The notes under the pieces: generated by a model
The model's input: only the letters and a program-made list of their open reading frames with translations
Database searches by the model: none
Told to the model about the DNA's origin: nothing
Shown here: positions 124 to 5,830 of the stretch, piece by piece
Position numbering within the stretch: the stretch's first letter is position 1
Layout of the letters: every line of letters begins with the position of its first letter
Assembly: GCA_900299205.1 (NCBI GenBank)
Contig: OMIW01000035.1
Coordinates: forward strand, 1-5,830
Source: Pseudomonadota bacterium
Lineage (GTDB): Bacteria > Bdellovibrionota_C > UBA2361 > OMIW01
Reading direction: 5' to 3'
Length of the DNA stretch: 5,830 nucleotides
Program-made: the position numbers and the translations under genes

Positions 124-202
124 GCTCTGGTCTCTTCTCGCGTTACCCATCCCCATTTTTTGCCCCTGTCATTTTCTGTTCGCCGAGGTTTCTGTGCTAT
201 GA
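122..202 (+). CDS. Short ORF overlapping the greA start (26 aa, doubtful)
   Basis: ATG at 122 opens a 26-codon frame, MLWSLLALPIPIFCPCHFLF followed by AEVSVL, that ends at TGA 200-202. The stop overlaps the greA ATG as ATGA, the classic arrangement for translational coupling. The peptide is strongly hydrophobic. Against it, the GAGG at 117-120 lies only one base from the ATG, too close for a normal ribosome site. The frame is also open upstream to a GTG at 83, which has no visible ribosome site. The pyrimidine-rich stretch at 124-185 would give hydrophobic codons by chance. It is recorded because dnaG shows the same overlap. Confidence 0.2.
   Translation: MLWSLLALPIPIFCPCHFLFAEVSVL
185..189 (+). 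promoter_or_regulatory. greA ribosome binding site
   Basis: GAGGT lies nine bases before the ATG at 199. It supports this start over the in-frame upstream TTG at 49 and over the in-frame ATG at 211. Confidence 0.65.
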
Positions 203-699
203 GACGCCCAATGACCCCTCGAGGGTATGCTGCAATGAGGAAAGAGCTGATGAGACTCAAGGGGTTGCGGCCTGAGATAGCTAACCAGATAGAGGTGGCT
301 CGGGGGCATGGTGACCTTTCTGAGAACGGGGACTATGATGCGGCAAAAGAGCGCTCGGGAATGGTCGAGGCAAAGATTCGAGACCTAGAGGGTAAACTTG
401 CTGTCGCCGATATTATTGACCCTCGCCGTATCAGTGATACGACGAGGGTGGTGTTTGGCCTCACTGTTGTCATCGAAGATGTGGAATCGGGCGATTCGCG
501 CCGACTTTCAATAGTGGGAGAGGATGAGAGTGATGTCGACCAAGGATTAGTATCGGTTGCCGCTCCTCTCGGTAGGGCGCTCATTGGCAAGGAGGTTGGA
601 GATATCGCCCGGGTTAATGCCCCCGGTGGCGCCAAAGAATTCGAGGTGATTGAGATTTTGGTTGATTATCGAGAGGAAGAGGCGGTTGAGGTTGACTAG
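199..699 (+). CDS. greA: Transcription elongation factor GreA
   Basis: GreA inserts into the secondary channel of paused, backtracked RNA polymerase and stimulates cleavage of the extruded RNA 3' end. The 166-residue protein is close to the usual length of about 158. Residues 5-75 (PMTPRGYAAMRKEL through ADIIDP) form the N-terminal coiled coil. The tip motif GDLSEN keeps the two acidic residues, D39 and E42, that correspond to D41 and E44 of E. coli GreA and help position catalytic magnesium. Residues 120-154 (PLGRALIGKEVGD, then APGGAKEFEVIEI) match the C-terminal FKBP-like domain. A short acidic tail follows. The ATG at 199 is chosen because family similarity begins at PMTP and a GAGGT site precedes it; the frame is open back to a TTG at 49, but that segment is not GreA-like. 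GreB is less likely but not formally excluded. It stands 198 bases before dnaG, where many genomes carry rpsU. Confidence 0.95.
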   Translation: MRRPMTPRGYAAMRKELMRLKGLRPEIANQIEVARGHGDLSENGDYDAAKERSGMVEAKIRDLEGKLAVADIIDPRRISDTTRVVFGLTVVIEDVESGDSRRLSIVGEDESDVDQGLVSVAAPLGRALIGKEVGDIARVNAPGGAKEFEVIEILVDYREEEAVEVD

Positions 700-814: not shown

Positions 815-901
815 ATGGCGGGCGGGTTTCGGAGGGGACTGCCTTGCGAGGGGAATTCCAGAGAAAGGTTGGGTGCTGTTAAGGAAGGACGGACATCGTG
901 A
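815..901 (+). CDS. Short ORF overlapping the dnaG start (28 aa, possible leader peptide)
   Basis: ATG at 815 opens MAGGFRRGLPCEGNSRERLG followed by AVKEGRTS, ending at TGA 899-901. The stop is embedded in the dnaG start cluster GTGATG (898-903). GAGG at 803-806, part of the conserved TGCGAGG block of the upstream module, sits eight bases before the ATG, a good ribosome-site spacing. A stop at 809-811 closes the frame just upstream, so only this ATG is available. The peptide matches no family I recognise. Translation of it could deliver ribosomes to the dnaG start; equally, it may be a chance ORF. Confidence 0.3.
   Translation: MAGGFRRGLPCEGNSRERLGAVKEGRTS
881..889 (+). promoter_or_regulatory. 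dnaG ribosome binding site
   Basis: AAGGAAGGA contains two overlapping AAGGA sites. The second (885-889) is eight bases from GTG 898 and eleven from ATG 901, so the spacing slightly favours the GTG. Confidence 0.6.
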
Positions 902-2739
902 TGATATCTCCCGAGAGCATTCAGAACGTACGGGAGCGGGTGAGATTGTCTGATCTCATGAGAGAGGAATGCGACCTCAAACGGTCGGGCAGCCGATGGG
1001 TTTGTGGTTGTCCCTTTCACGGTGAGCGGACGCCATCGTGTTTTGTTAATGATGATACGAACACCTTCCACTGCTTTGGGTGCGGTGAATCGGGTGACGC
1101 GATATCGTATGTGATGCGCTCAAAGGGGTTCGCTTTTGCGGAGTCGGTTGAGTATCTCGCGGCAAAAGCCGGTATAGATCTTGTGCGTATTGGCCGTGAG
1201 GGGAAGGCTGCTCATAGCCCCGACCACGAACGAAAAGAGCAGCTGGTGCGGGCTCTCACCGAGGCACACCGATATTTTCGATGGTGCTACGAACGGGCAC
1301 CAGAGGTAGTTCAATCGTATATAATGTCGCGCGGGCTGACACCAGCTGCGGTCGATGCATTTGGTATCGGGTTCGCCCCTGTTGGGGGAGATAGTCTGGT
1401 ATCGTGGCTCCGAAAGGCGGGAGTGTCAGATGATGTTGCGGTGATTTCGGGGCTCCTGAAGCGCGACCAAAGTGGTCAGCTTCGGCCCTCGTTTCGCGGA
1501 CGGCTTCAATTCCCGATCGTATCGGAGCGAAATCAAGTTGTCGGTTTCGGGGGACGACTCGTCCCTGCCCTCTATACCGATGGACGTGAGCGCCCAAAGT
1601 ATATCAACTCCCTTGAAAGTCCACTCTATCGTAAGCATAAGACGCTGTACGGCTTGCCGGTAGCAATGCGAGCGATACGAGAACGGGGAGAAGTGTACGT
1701 CGTCGAGGGATACCTCGATGTGGTGGGCTTATGGCAAGTCGGGGTTCGAAATGTTGTCGCGTGTTGTGGCACCGCTTTAACATCGGAACACGGGGACCGA
1801 CTTGCGCGGTTGGTGCGACGAGTCGTCCTGCTCTTCGATGGAGATGATGCTGGTCGAGTCGCAGCGGCTCGGGCGTTCAAGACAGTGGCAAATCTTGCGG
1901 TCGATGTTTGGGTGTCATTTTTGCCGGAAGGTGAAGATCCCGATGACCTTGCACGTCGGCTCGGAGCAGGGACAGAAGACTTTTTGTCGGCGCTCCCTCG
2001 GCGGTCGCTTCTCTCGGCTTTTCTTGACGAGCAATTTCGCCGTCATGGGGGTGAGGATATGACTGGTCCGGTCGCCCGGTCGGCCATCGGGGAGGAGATT
2101 CGGCAGGTGCTTGCTGGAGTAACGCGCGATGTGGTGAGGCACGATTTGGAGCGGGAGGCAGCATCGCGTTTGCGAATCGATCCCGGTTTGATGGCCTTGG
2201 GCGGGCGGACTGACGGAATCGAGTCGAGGGATAGGGTGTCATCCGAAGAGGGTGGGCGCTGGGTTGAAATGCCGTCAGAGACCTCGCGGGGTCGTCTCAC
2301 CGCGGTTGAGCAACAGCTTCTCCTGGCCGTCATGGCGCAGTGGGAGACCCTGCCCGCAGTCGTCCTAGCTGACCCTCGTGTTTGTGGAGTGATGAGCCCC
2401 TCGGTTCTCGAGTTTTTGGGGGAGCTCAGGGCGGTTGTGGCAGAGGAGTCAGGGCGGGATGCTGAGAAAAGAGCTCGAGTAAAGGATGTGCTTCGGAGTC
2501 GTGGAGGGGAATGGATCGAGCTGTGGCGTCGATCCCGAACGATGGCAGCTGCGTCGGGAACCGACCCGACGAAATGGTATGACGACTGCGTGCGGGCCTG
2601 CCGGCGGCAGCAGATGGTGGGGGTCCTTATCGAAATCGAGCGACAGATTGAGCAGTCGAACGACGAGAGTGCCCGAGCGGTCCTGCTGGGGAGAAAGCTC
2701 GATATGCGCCGTCAGCTTGACAGGCTGACGCCGAGATAG
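898..2739 (+). CDS. dnaG: DNA primase DnaG
   Basis: DnaG makes the short RNA primers that start leading-strand and Okazaki-fragment synthesis, recruited to the fork by the replicative helicase DnaB. The 613 residues fit the family. The N-terminal zinc ribbon shows C38, H41, C59 and C62 in CPFHGERTPS and HCFGCG. The catalytic core carries VVGFGGR (214-220) and KYINS (234-238). The TOPRIM fold follows, with E270 in VVEGYLD, D314 and D316 in LLFDGDDAG, and the acidic EGEDPDD at 344-350, all metal-binding positions. Residues from about 450 to the end form the divergent helical C-terminal region expected to bind DnaB; conservation there is too low to judge by eye. Two starts are possible, GTG 898 or ATG 901, differing by one residue. 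The zinc-site region reads PSCFV where PSF-V is usual, adding an extra cysteine (C48). Confidence 0.97.
   Translation: MMISPESIQNVRERVRLSDLMREECDLKRSGSRWVCGCPFHGERTPSCFVNDDTNTFHCFGCGESGDAISYVMRSKGFAFAESVEYLAAKAGIDLVRIGREGKAAHSPDHERKEQLVRALTEAHRYFRWCYERAPEVVQSYIMSRGLTPAAVDAFGIGFAPVGGDSLVSWLRKAGVSDDVAVISGLLKRDQSGQLRPSFRGRLQFPIVSERNQVVGFGGRLVPALYTDGRERPKYINSLESPLYRKHKTLYGLPVAMRAIRERGEVYVVEGYLDVVGLWQVGVRNVVACCGTALTSEHGDRLARLVRRVVLLFDGDDAGRVAAARAFKTVANLAVDVWVSFLPEGEDPDDLARRLGAGTEDFLSALPRRSLLSAFLDEQFRRHGGEDMTGPVARSAIGEEIRQVLAGVTRDVVRHDLEREAASRLRIDPGLMALGGRTDGIESRDRVSSEEGGRWVEMPSETSRGRLTAVEQQLLLAVMAQWETLPAVVLADPRVCGVMSPSVLEFLGELRAVVAEESGRDAEKRARVKDVLRSRGGEWIELWRRSRTMAAASGTDPTKWYDDCVRACRRQQMVGVLIEIERQIEQSNDESARAVLLGRKLDMRRQLDRLTPR
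2710..2730 (+). other. Hairpin in the last codons of dnaG
   Basis: CGTCAGC (2710-2716) pairs perfectly with GCTGACG (2724-2730) across a 7-base loop, just before the dnaG stop. No T-run follows (the next bases are CCGAGATAGGGAGG), so an intrinsic terminator is not supported. It could be an mRNA-stability or processing structure between dnaG and rpoD; E. coli has an RNase E cut in this interval. A chance stem within coding sequence is also possible. Confidence 0.4.
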
Positions 2740-2930
2740 GGAGGGTGCAGTCGCGATTGCTTGGACCCCGAGTGTGAAAGCTTGCTTTACCCAATCAAAG
2801 GAAATCGATAAGATGGGGCGCTTGGCTCCTCATTCCATTTGAGAGGAACATCAGATGGGGCGCTGTGTGCGCTGAGAGCAGGTCGAGTTGCGGAGCCACA
2901 AGGTAATTGAGGGGCGATTTTGGGGGAGTC
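2740..2930. other. dnaG-rpoD spacer with small repeats, no clear promoter
   Basis: No convincing gene lies here. Visible structure includes a near-palindrome GCAGTCGCGATTGC (2747-2760), a small stem AAAGC-TT-GCTTT (2777-2788, extendable with one bulge to 2774-2790), and a 12-bp direct repeat AGATGGGGCGCT at 2811-2822 and 2853-2864. Candidate -35 boxes (TTGGAC at 2761, TTGCTT at 2782) lack a proper -10 at 16-18 bases; TAAGAT at 2809-2814 is 21 bases from the second. An internal rpoD promoter of a non-standard type cannot be excluded. Confidence 0.4.
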
Positions 2931-3143
2931 GTGTCGCGTGAACTGGCGCAGGGATTAATCTGGGTAATGGGGGGGTACCTGATCTGCAAGGGGGTATTGG
3001 CCGGGTTTTGGTGGGTGAGGTTGAGGCGGCTATCCTCGGAAGTATCGGGCAAGGTGAACGAAGGGGCGTCGGAAACCGATGGGGAGGAGGACTCCTTGGC
3101 AAATGGAGACAGGCCAGGGAGGCTCGCAGAAGTGGGTGAATAA
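2931..3143 (+). CDS. Small hypothetical protein with one hydrophobic segment
   Basis: This 70-residue frame starts at GTG 2931 (or TTG 2907, adding eight residues; a TAA at 2904-2906 closes the frame upstream). Residues 5-29 are hydrophobic and rich in Leu, Gly and Trp, though interrupted by K20, and are followed directly by RLRR. That fits a single membrane segment with a cytoplasmic C-terminal side. Residues 34-70 are hydrophilic and rich in Glu, Gly and Ser. The frame ends 20 bases before rpoD, so co-translation is plausible. Weaknesses: neither start has an ideal ribosome site (GGGGGAG is only two bases from the GTG), and the frame crosses a G7 run at 2969-2975. I recognise no family. The organised hydrophobic-basic-hydrophilic pattern favours a real gene over chance, but only moderately. 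Confidence 0.42.
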
Positions 3144-3151
3144 TTCTAAAC

Positions 3152-3157
3152 GGTGGT
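3152..3157 (+). promoter_or_regulatory. Probable rpoD ribosome binding site
   Basis: GGTGGT, one mismatch from GGAGGT, lies six bases before GTG 3164 and supports that start over ATG 3179. It falls just after the stop of the preceding small ORF. Confidence 0.45.
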
Positions 3158-3163
3158 GTACGG

Positions 3164-4318
3164 GTGGCGACCAAAAAAATGACATCGAAGATATCATCGA
3201 TAAGAACGTCTCGACGGGTCACGTCCCGAGGTTCTTCGGGGCGATCAACATCAACGGGGTCGCGTTCGGGTAGGGAGGAAGCCAAGCGCGGAGGCTCGGT
3301 TGTGGGTCGCGGGACGGTTCGCAAAAAAGATGGGTCGCGCTCGACATCGGCGCAATCTCGAACTGCTCAAGCCACGAAGTCACGGTCAGTCGGGGGGCGT
3401 TCTGGGACGGCCCAAAAACCGGCGAAAGGTTCAACCCTCAGAGGTCGTGCCGGACGAACTGTGTCGGAGGTCCGCTCGACGTCGCGAGGTGTGAACTCCT
3501 CCGCTCGTGCTGCGGGCGGGGCTTCTCAGGGTTCGAAAAAACCATCGTTAAAGGGTGTCGCTGGTAAGGGTAACCTGCGTCGGTCAGTATCAGGTGCTCG
3601 ATTCATAAAGAGCAGGGGGTCGGAGTCTCGCTCAGGAGGAGCCAAGCGACCCGAGTCGAGGGCTCAAAAAGGGGCAGGTTCAACCCCCGGTGGGACTCGT
3701 GCCACGACATCCAAGGGGGCAGTCAGAACATCCGTGCCGAGAGTCTCAGCCAAGCCCCATTCTCCGTCAAACTCGCGGGGCAAACCGACTTCGGACAAAG
3801 CCTCAGGTAAAAGATCGGAGTCGCAAAAGGCAGTGCTCCGCTCTCCGACAAAGCGACCTGAACAGAGACGAATCGAGGCAAAACAAGAGACAAAAAAGGA
3901 ACAGAAGGGAGTGACCGCGTCTTCGGCGCGAATGGTAATCAACGAGCAGAAGGCTCTGGTTGGGAAGGGAGTCGGTCAAGTAGCCTCAAAGGGAAAGGAG
4001 AAGAATATCGTGCAGTCCGGGGGTGGGGAAAAAGGGTCGATAGAGGTGAGCGGTGCAACTCGGGCTCAGGTGGGTTTCGGTCTCGCTGGGGGAGAGTCGC
4101 GTCCGGAGGGATCGGTTGCGTCTTCTCGCCCACTTCGCAAGGCGTCCCGGAAGGACGATGTTGAGGACCTTCTCGGAGATGTCGAAGACATCGGTGGCGG
4201 GGATGAATTTGAAGAGGCCGAAATCGCTGGCGATGAGGAGGTAGATCTGGGGGGGATAGTAGCTCCCGTGGAGGAGGAAGAGCGGGTCGAAGCGGGGGAT
4301 GAAGCGGGAGAGGAAGAG
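3164..4318 (+). other. N-terminal extension of RpoD: disordered basic then acidic tail
   Basis: These 385 codons precede region 1.1 in the same uninterrupted frame. The first 83 residues hold 21 Lys/Arg against three acidic residues (E38, E39, D56). The only aromatic residue in roughly the first 300 is F147. From residue 331 ([19 protein letters not shown]) the charge flips to strongly acidic until region 1.1. Such composition predicts disorder. Degenerate internal repeats are visible (AQKPAKGST at 83-91, AQKGAGST at 167-174). A downstream start inside this stretch would give a normal-sized sigma factor, for example M256 at ATG 3929-3931, but no strong ribosome site stands out there. Nucleic-acid binding by the basic part is inference only. 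Confidence 0.7.
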
Positions 4319-5830
4319 GACACAATCAATTTAGAGAGTCTTCTCGAAATTGGGCGTGAACGGGGGTACGTGACTCTCCAGGAGCTGGGAAGGACCTTCG
4401 AGTCTGAGGAGGTTTCCGAAGAGCAGATGGAGGAGGTGATAACCCTCTTCAGTGAGCAGGATATCGATATTATCGATCAGGGCAGGGATAAGTATCTCGA
4501 AGAGCCGGAGGGTGCGGTGGTCGAGAGTCGGGTGCCTGAACTTCTTGATCCCTCAGCTCTCGGTAAAAGCACTGATCCCGTGCGGATGTATCTGCGAGAG
4601 ATGGGAAATGTGAGTCTCCTGACCCGAGAAGGTGAGGTCGAAATTGCAAAAAAGATCGAGGCGGGATTGCAGGTCGCTCGACGGGAATCTCTGCGACAGC
4701 CACTGGCTCTCGCCTATGCTCTCGACGTATTCGAAGGAGTAAAGGGGGGGACCATTCGACTTCGAGACCTTTTCACCGAGGATGACGCAGGAGAAGAGGA
4801 GTCGGAGGCTGCAGATGAGGGCGCCGATGATGAGGCAGGCGAGGATTTATCGGAAAAGAGGCCGGTGAGCCAGGAGGACGAGGAGGCAAAAGAGGCGTTC
4901 CTTCGGAAGCACCCCCTTTTCAAGAAGGCCCAAAAAGAGATCAGAAGTGCGTACGAACAATTTCGAGATGCGCGGAAAAGCTCGATTGAAGAGGGGAGGG
5001 TGGCGCAACTTAGGTACGAGCGGCTCCTCGAGAGGAATATCGAGCGGATGGAGGAGCTGAACTTTAATGCAAAGCAGCATGCGCGGATTGTATCGGTCAT
5101 CAAGGAGAAGCATGATCAGGTCTTGGCGCTCATTCGTCCGGCTCAAATGCTTGCGCGACCAACAGGAAAGCCTCTCCCTGAATTGGTAGGGATGATAGAG
5201 GAACTTATTACGGATGATCAGGCGTTAGCGAAGAAGGTGACGAAGCGCCTCAACCTGAAGGCGGGATCGGCCCGAGAACTTGGATTTAGACTTCAAAGGC
5301 TCATTGATGAGGCGACAGCGGTAGAAGAAGATATTCTCATGGACATCTTCTCTTTCAATCAGGCAGCGTACGCTCTCAAGGATGGAGAGATGCGAGCCGC
5401 CGATGCAAAGCGAGAGTTGGTAGAGGCGAATCTTCGGCTTGTCGTTTCGATAGCGAAGAAATACACGAACAGAGGCTTGCAATTCCTTGACCTGATTCAG
5501 GAGGGGAATATCGGTCTCATGAAGGCGGTCGACAAGTTCGAATATCAGCGGGGATACAAGTTTTCCACCTACGCGACGTGGTGGATTCGTCAAGCAATCA
5601 CGCGCGCTATAGCCGATCAGGCTCGTATCATCCGAATCCCGGTCCATATGATCGAGACGATTAACAAATTGATACGAACATCTCGCCAGCTTGTGCAGGA
5701 GCTAAGTCGAGAGCCGACGCCCGAAGAGATCGCCGCAAAAATGGAGATTCCTCTCGATAAAGTCCGGAAAGTACTCAAGATTGCTAAAGAGCCGATATCC
5801 CTCGAGACGCCAATCGGCGAGGAAGAGGAC
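3164..5830 (+). CDS. rpoD: Primary sigma factor RpoD (sigma-70), 3' truncated by window edge
   Basis: RpoD directs RNA polymerase to housekeeping promoters. The visible 889 residues have this order: a basic Arg/Lys/Ser/Gly-rich extension (1-330), an acidic stretch (331-385), region 1.1 (about 386-445, [20 protein letters not shown]), region 1.2 (471-502, [11 protein letters not shown]), a non-conserved region with an acidic insert (538-573) and helical segments, and regions 2.1-2.4 from about 747. [19 protein letters not shown] and [13 protein letters not shown] (800-812) are essentially invariant. Q810 and T813, equivalents of E. coli Q437 and T440 that read the -10 element, are kept. RIPVHM (824-829) and region 3.1 follow. 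The frame leaves the window at PIGEEED in region 3.2, so about 100 residues including region 4 are missing. GTG 3164 is preferred over ATG 3179; TGA at 3137 closes the frame upstream. The full protein should approach 990 residues, against 613 in E. coli. Confidence 0.96.

Follow-up and report, generated by a model that had tools for sequence, protein, structure and literature searches.

Genes and features of the locus

The window, that is, the whole stretch of 5,830 nucleotides analysed here (contig C35 of genome G000, which is 2.45 Mb and 89.75% complete), carries a gre-type gene, dnaG and the 5′ part of rpoD, the last reaching from 3164 to the contig end (Table 1). The gre-dnaG-rpoD order is common to nine named relatives, all of them uncultured genomes labelled Deltaproteobacteria, Oligoflexia, Dadabacteria or just bacterium. 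Because rpoD runs off the contig at 5830, about 97 residues at its end, a length estimated from relatives, are missing, including region 4. An earlier note on this DNA had described 3164–4318 as a primary sigma factor; the assignment to a primary sigma factor stood, but these coordinates span the extension only and the gene continues past the contig end.

Table 1. Features of the window (residue numbers refer to the RpoD protein)
Feature	Position	Strand	Remarks
GreA/GreB-type elongation factor gene	199..699	+	Upstream neighbour; ORF could begin at 49
dnaG primase	898..2739	+	Upstream neighbour of rpoD
RpoD basic disordered arm, residues 1–330	3164..4153	+	Net +59; Ser/Gly/Arg/Lys-rich; probable GTG start at 3164
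RpoD acidic disordered linker, residues 331–385	4154..4318	+	Net −25; first residues DDVEDLLGD
Sigma region 1.1 (PF03979), residues 389–443	4328..4492	+	Predicted fold (helices/strands 384–437)
Linker joining region 1.1 to region 1.2	4493..4573	+	Low confidence
Sigma region 1.2 (PF00140), residues 471–503	4574..4672	+	Pfam
Remaining sigma: non-essential region, region 2, part of region 3	4673..5830	+	Contig end cuts gene

The window protein matched Pfam models above cut-off in the order region 1.1 (from residue 389, 46.7 bits), region 1.2 (from residue 471), non-essential region, region 2 and region 3. It holds the one PF03979 match in all of G000, the remaining sigma matches in the genome being weak, and its gene adjoins dnaG. 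The order of these regions, the open frame and the charge thus agree with the earlier description of a primary sigma factor with a long extension before region 1.1. In a tree of regions 1.2 to 4, no end branch within the order is longer than that of this RpoD (0.71).

The 424-base gap between dnaG and rpoD (2740–3163) had no Rfam match and no plausible gene, and probably contains the rpoD promoter region. An Rfam search of the window returned no match, and scans for promoters and terminators gave no notable excess over shuffles. A dispersed repeat with the core TCAAACTNTCAAAGTG occupies 6–123 and 744–809, with three copies flanking the gre gene, two of which are a 48-nt inverted repeat. Nine matches to it were found over seven G000 contigs, and none with the reversed control; judged by these sequence features, the repeat appears to be REP- or MITE-like.

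Reading frame and translation of the extension

The rpoD frame is preceded by a TGA at 3137–3139 and then remains open from 3140 to 5830 with no stop, as the earlier note had stated for its upstream limit. The first start codon in this frame is the GTG at 3164. Over 3164–4318 the other five frames hold 5–15 stops each, and none of 2,000 base shuffles stayed open. GTG starts recur at the tail starts of relatives in the order; the tails of relatives usually begin with GTG, with Lys-Lys or Arg-Lys close behind. The start context of the window (GTG-GCG-ACC) resembles that of G017 (GTG-GCA-ACC), and purine-rich sequence lies upstream in several relatives. The earlier note had named stops or frameshifts in close relatives as a refutation; no stop was found within the corresponding stretch of any relative.

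In family f11 (eight genomes), the ratio of third-position to first-plus-second-position substitutions was 0.95 in the basic arm (neutral, 0.5), 3.0 in the acidic linker and 2.5 in both region 1.1 and the core. A comparison of codon usage between the extension and the remaining operon could not tell the frames apart, so the evidence for the frame rests on its openness, the relatives and the codon-position bias. Similar starts, the absence of stops and the third-position bias of f11 make translation of the tail in relatives well supported. The tail is almost certainly translated, and for G000 itself we infer its translation from these relatives.

Charge layout and predicted disorder

The charges fall into two blocks, as the earlier note had described: residues 1–330 carry a net +59 and consist of 18% Ser, 15% Gly, 13% Arg and 11% Lys, and residues 331–385 carry a net −25, with 31% Glu and 16% Asp. 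None of 500 shuffles of these residues gave so large a plus-to-minus split (p = 0.002). In an AlphaFold prediction from an alignment of 24 sequences, residues 1–384 had pLDDT values mostly below 50 and contained no helix or strand, values that are also expected from the few and variable tail sequences of such a shallow alignment; region 1.1 was folded at 384–437, with block means of pLDDT 70–82. The disorder prediction suggested earlier therefore yielded a tail without confident structure in front of a region 1.1 that folds. The content of large hydrophobic residues in the tail (14%) agrees with disorder, and we regard the tail as very probably disordered, as modelled. The window protein is RpoD, the primary sigma factor, and its two-part N-terminal tail is very probably both translated and intrinsically disordered.

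The arm of G000 is rich in Ser, Gly and Arg; nearly all relatives use Lys. A search by sequence for a second G000 protein with a similar tail found none. Comparison of the tail with PDB chains, SigA and HrdB included, gave no sequence match, and low-complexity sequence of this kind cannot show descent shared with the actinobacterial sigma-A-N.

The charge-segregated layout across the phylum

The nearest relatives compared with G000 belong to the same order but to other families, and the phylum genomes compared belong to a single class. Among 35 RpoDs with an intact 5′ end, for which start codons were chosen by hand, 34 have a basic arm of 18–330 residues at the N-terminus. These span 22 families, with G000 the longest and G032 the single protein without an arm. 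All 35 proteins, with or without region 1.1, carry an acidic module (net −11 to −51) that extends up to region 1.2, and the plus-to-minus split went beyond shuffles (p < 0.05) in 30 of them. For most families of the window's order this module consists of region 1.1, to which some add an acidic linker. Family f4 and 14 genomes outside the order, in which region 1.1 is undetectable, have a disordered acidic stretch as the module. About six families of the order possess the basic arm but lack a separate net-acidic linker before region 1.1. The longest frame before region 1.2 among the fetched loci is that of G000 (478 codons), followed by L057 (337 codons).

Within f11, identity was 79% in the acidic linker, 80% in region 1.1 and 51% in the basic arm. 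Taken with the codon ratios, these values indicate that the acidic part is strongly constrained and that the constraint on the basic part is mainly compositional. The comparison of orthologs that the earlier note had called for thus revealed a charge pattern that relatives retain although their basic sequence drifts. On this sequence evidence, the charge-segregated layout is not peculiar to the window protein but is phylum-wide, and the window tail is its extreme-length case.

States of region 1.1

PF03979 was detected in 19/45 phylum genomes, all inside the window's order, and PF00140 in 43/45. Region 1.1 was undetectable by PF03979 in f4 and in 17/17 phylum genomes outside the order. Within the order, the rpoD genes without it are those of f4 (G003, G012, G014 and G017) and f12 (G011, whose 5′ end is cut by the contig); G019, also of f4, is a fragment, and in the remaining genomes of the order that missed PF03979 the main rpoD had not been recovered. 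An acidic disordered stretch replaces region 1.1 at L023, L024, L026 and L027 (f4), and at L028–L033, L116–L121, L123 and L124. On the tree of regions 1.2 to 4, the region 1.1 label must change at least twice; the tree contains a long f14 branch, long outgroup branches and weak inner support, and does not fix the direction of change.

The region 1.1 profile picked out the last helix of the domain within the acidic stretches of L120 (14.9 bits, residues 32–60 of the stretch before region 1.2), L118 (9.7 bits, residues 47–68) and L121 (8.1 bits, residues 33–48), at a motif like DDLLSILGD, and none of about 190 local shuffles reached these scores. Weaker signals occurred in L028, L029, L033, L117 and L116, and the profile found nothing in f4. 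The DDLLSILGD-type motif is probably a relic of a lost region 1.1. These profile results suggest that region 1.1 was eroded to a short motif of this type outside the order, and that f4 lost the domain wholly. The generalisation that every protein without region 1.1 keeps a relic was rejected, the signal being absent in f4 and weak in some others. In the AlphaFold model of the f4 relative L039, nearly all of residues 1–268 had pLDDT values below 50, with two short low-confidence helices, and the f4 tail gave weak low-complexity matches only against the PDB.

This lineage therefore holds RpoDs with an intact region 1.1, with a relic and with none, and an acidic module stands before region 1.2 in all of them. 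Such a series is a natural swap experiment on whether region 1.1 functions through its fold or its charge, and is a more interesting result than the length of the tail. As a tentative reading, somewhat against the odds, the folded region 1.1 may have been replaced at least twice by a similarly charged acidic disordered stretch behind the basic arm; the gate discussed below would then need charge rather than fold, and the window protein, with arm, linker and folded region 1.1, would be an intermediate.

Comparison with known systems

The closest precedent is the mycobacterial sigma-A-N, which is charge-separated, with a positive first half and a negative second half, a property described as possibly unique to mycobacteria (PMC5511352). 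CD and NMR show it to be disordered, and a strongly acidic region follows its roughly 60 positive residues (PMC11656743). Its role as an equivalent of region 1.1 is disputed, as PMC5511352 sets out against the view of Lin et al. discussed there, and Hubin et al. proposed that it may never enter the cleft (PMC5511352). In M. tuberculosis, sigma-A truncated up to residue 132 supported transcription and growth, and truncation to 179 abolished function; the acidic part, in the authors' proposal, plays a role like that of region 1.1. Without the basic half, promoter DNA affinity by SPR was not significantly changed and complementation not measurably changed (PMC10011835).

Like sigma-A-N, the window tail precedes region 1.2 of the primary sigma factor, is predicted to be disordered and runs from positive to negative, and relatives in the phylum without region 1.1 match the sigma-A-N layout. 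Unlike sigma-A-N, the window protein keeps a folded region 1.1 after the tail, which mycobacteria lack. Its 470 residues before region 1.2 outnumber the 163 of M. smegmatis and the 225 of M. tuberculosis, and its phylum is unrelated to mycobacteria. We did not file it as a member of the sigma-A-N type because the absence of region 1.1 is one of the features that define that type.

In E. coli, region 1.1 occupies the main channel of the free holoenzyme until DNA displaces it (as summarised in PMC5511352). The window protein resembles sigma70 in its homologous folded region 1.1, linker and region 1.2; the E. coli domain, however, is N-terminal, with matches beginning at its residue 9, and has neither a basic arm nor an acidic linker in front of it. 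In the delta subunit of B. subtilis, a 1.1-like fold is linked to a long acidic disordered region that works at the main channel (PMC7749165), but delta is a separate subunit of 173 residues with the reversed order, fold then tail. G000 has no match to PF05066 (HARE-HTH), the domain searched for as evidence of a delta subunit.

Independent basic arms rich in Lys and Ala, of roughly 100–250 residues, also precede region 1.1 of RpoD in Desulfobacterales (L058, L060, L069, L071 and L074) and in mostly alphaproteobacterial metagenome-assembled genomes (L057, L061, L066, L076, L082, L087, L088 and L100). Those of L057, L058, L060, L071, L087, L088 and L100, which are rich in Lys, Ala and Thr and adjoin region 1.1 directly, differ from the window tail in being shorter, basic up to region 1.1 and mostly devoid of a separate acidic linker. 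Basic RpoD arms have thus arisen or persisted widely. A search of the open-access literature, with most subscription journals outside its scope, found no paper on the tails of this phylum or on those of Desulfobacterales and alphaproteobacteria. In another phylum, the RpoD frame of L126 (G046) has 784 codons; in it a Lys/Ala/Pro-rich arm precedes region 1.1 and an acidic linker follows that region.

Proposed function and alternative explanations

We propose that the acidic module serves as a gate and the basic arm as a nucleic-acid tether, both on a disordered tail, and put the probability of this reading as a whole at roughly 0.55. The acidic module, which in the window protein comprises the 55-residue linker and the folded region 1.1, would act as a displaceable gate or DNA mimic at the main channel of the polymerase, as E. 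coli region 1.1 does; where relatives lack region 1.1, this job would fall to an acidic disordered stretch whose net charge is similar. We read this module as a gate because it is the constant element of the phylum, folded or not, as in M. tuberculosis sigma-A, and by analogy with these systems the role is reasonably probable. Given the view of Hubin et al., the gate may operate where the channel opens rather than within it. The basic arm could serve as a non-specific tether to DNA or RNA, tolerant of changes in length, and so raise the local concentration of holoenzyme at DNA. To this assignment we give even odds; the unchanged promoter affinity of M. tuberculosis sigma-A lacking its basic half speaks against it. 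In free sigma the arm might also shield the acidic module for short periods, which we consider doubtful: the charges of arm and acidic module do not co-vary (rho = −0.08, p = 0.63), and the fold-back on region 1.1 suggested in the earlier note thus found no support from this comparison. G032, in which the acidic module stands without a basic arm, counts against the proposal as a whole.

Several other explanations bear on the same evidence. The basic arm might be a near-neutral, low-complexity accretion at a tolerant N-terminus, with the acidic module alone being of importance. Its length range of 0–330 residues over the phylum, its low identity and weak codon constraint within f11, and the dispensability of the basic half in the M. 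tuberculosis assays used (PMC10011835) would all fit; yet the arm is kept in nearly every surveyed protein, recurs in Desulfobacterales and alphaproteobacteria, and shows a third-position ratio above the neutral value, and we hold this explanation to be unlikely. Still less probable is that the tail is chiefly a platform for docking or regulation by partners or modification, like sigma-A-N with MoaB2 and Ser/Thr kinases. MoaB2 requires sigma-A-N and contacts its acidic part (PMC11656743), sigma-A phosphosites fall in the disordered part (PMC10011835), and nearly a fifth of the G000 arm is Ser (18%), but no conserved partner motif was found across families and no partner is known in the phylum.

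A basic arm that folds onto the acidic linker and region 1.1, locking free sigma in an autoinhibited state, is suggested by the opposite charges on one chain, but is improbable given that these charges do not co-vary and that about six families of the order combine a basic arm with no separate net-acidic linker. That the true start lies near region 1.1, the open frame upstream being accidental or misassembled, might be entertained for a contig as short as 5830 bp; it is very improbable in view of the uninterrupted frame in relatives, their similar GTG context, the codon-position bias and the gre-dnaG-rpoD synteny shared with nine of them.
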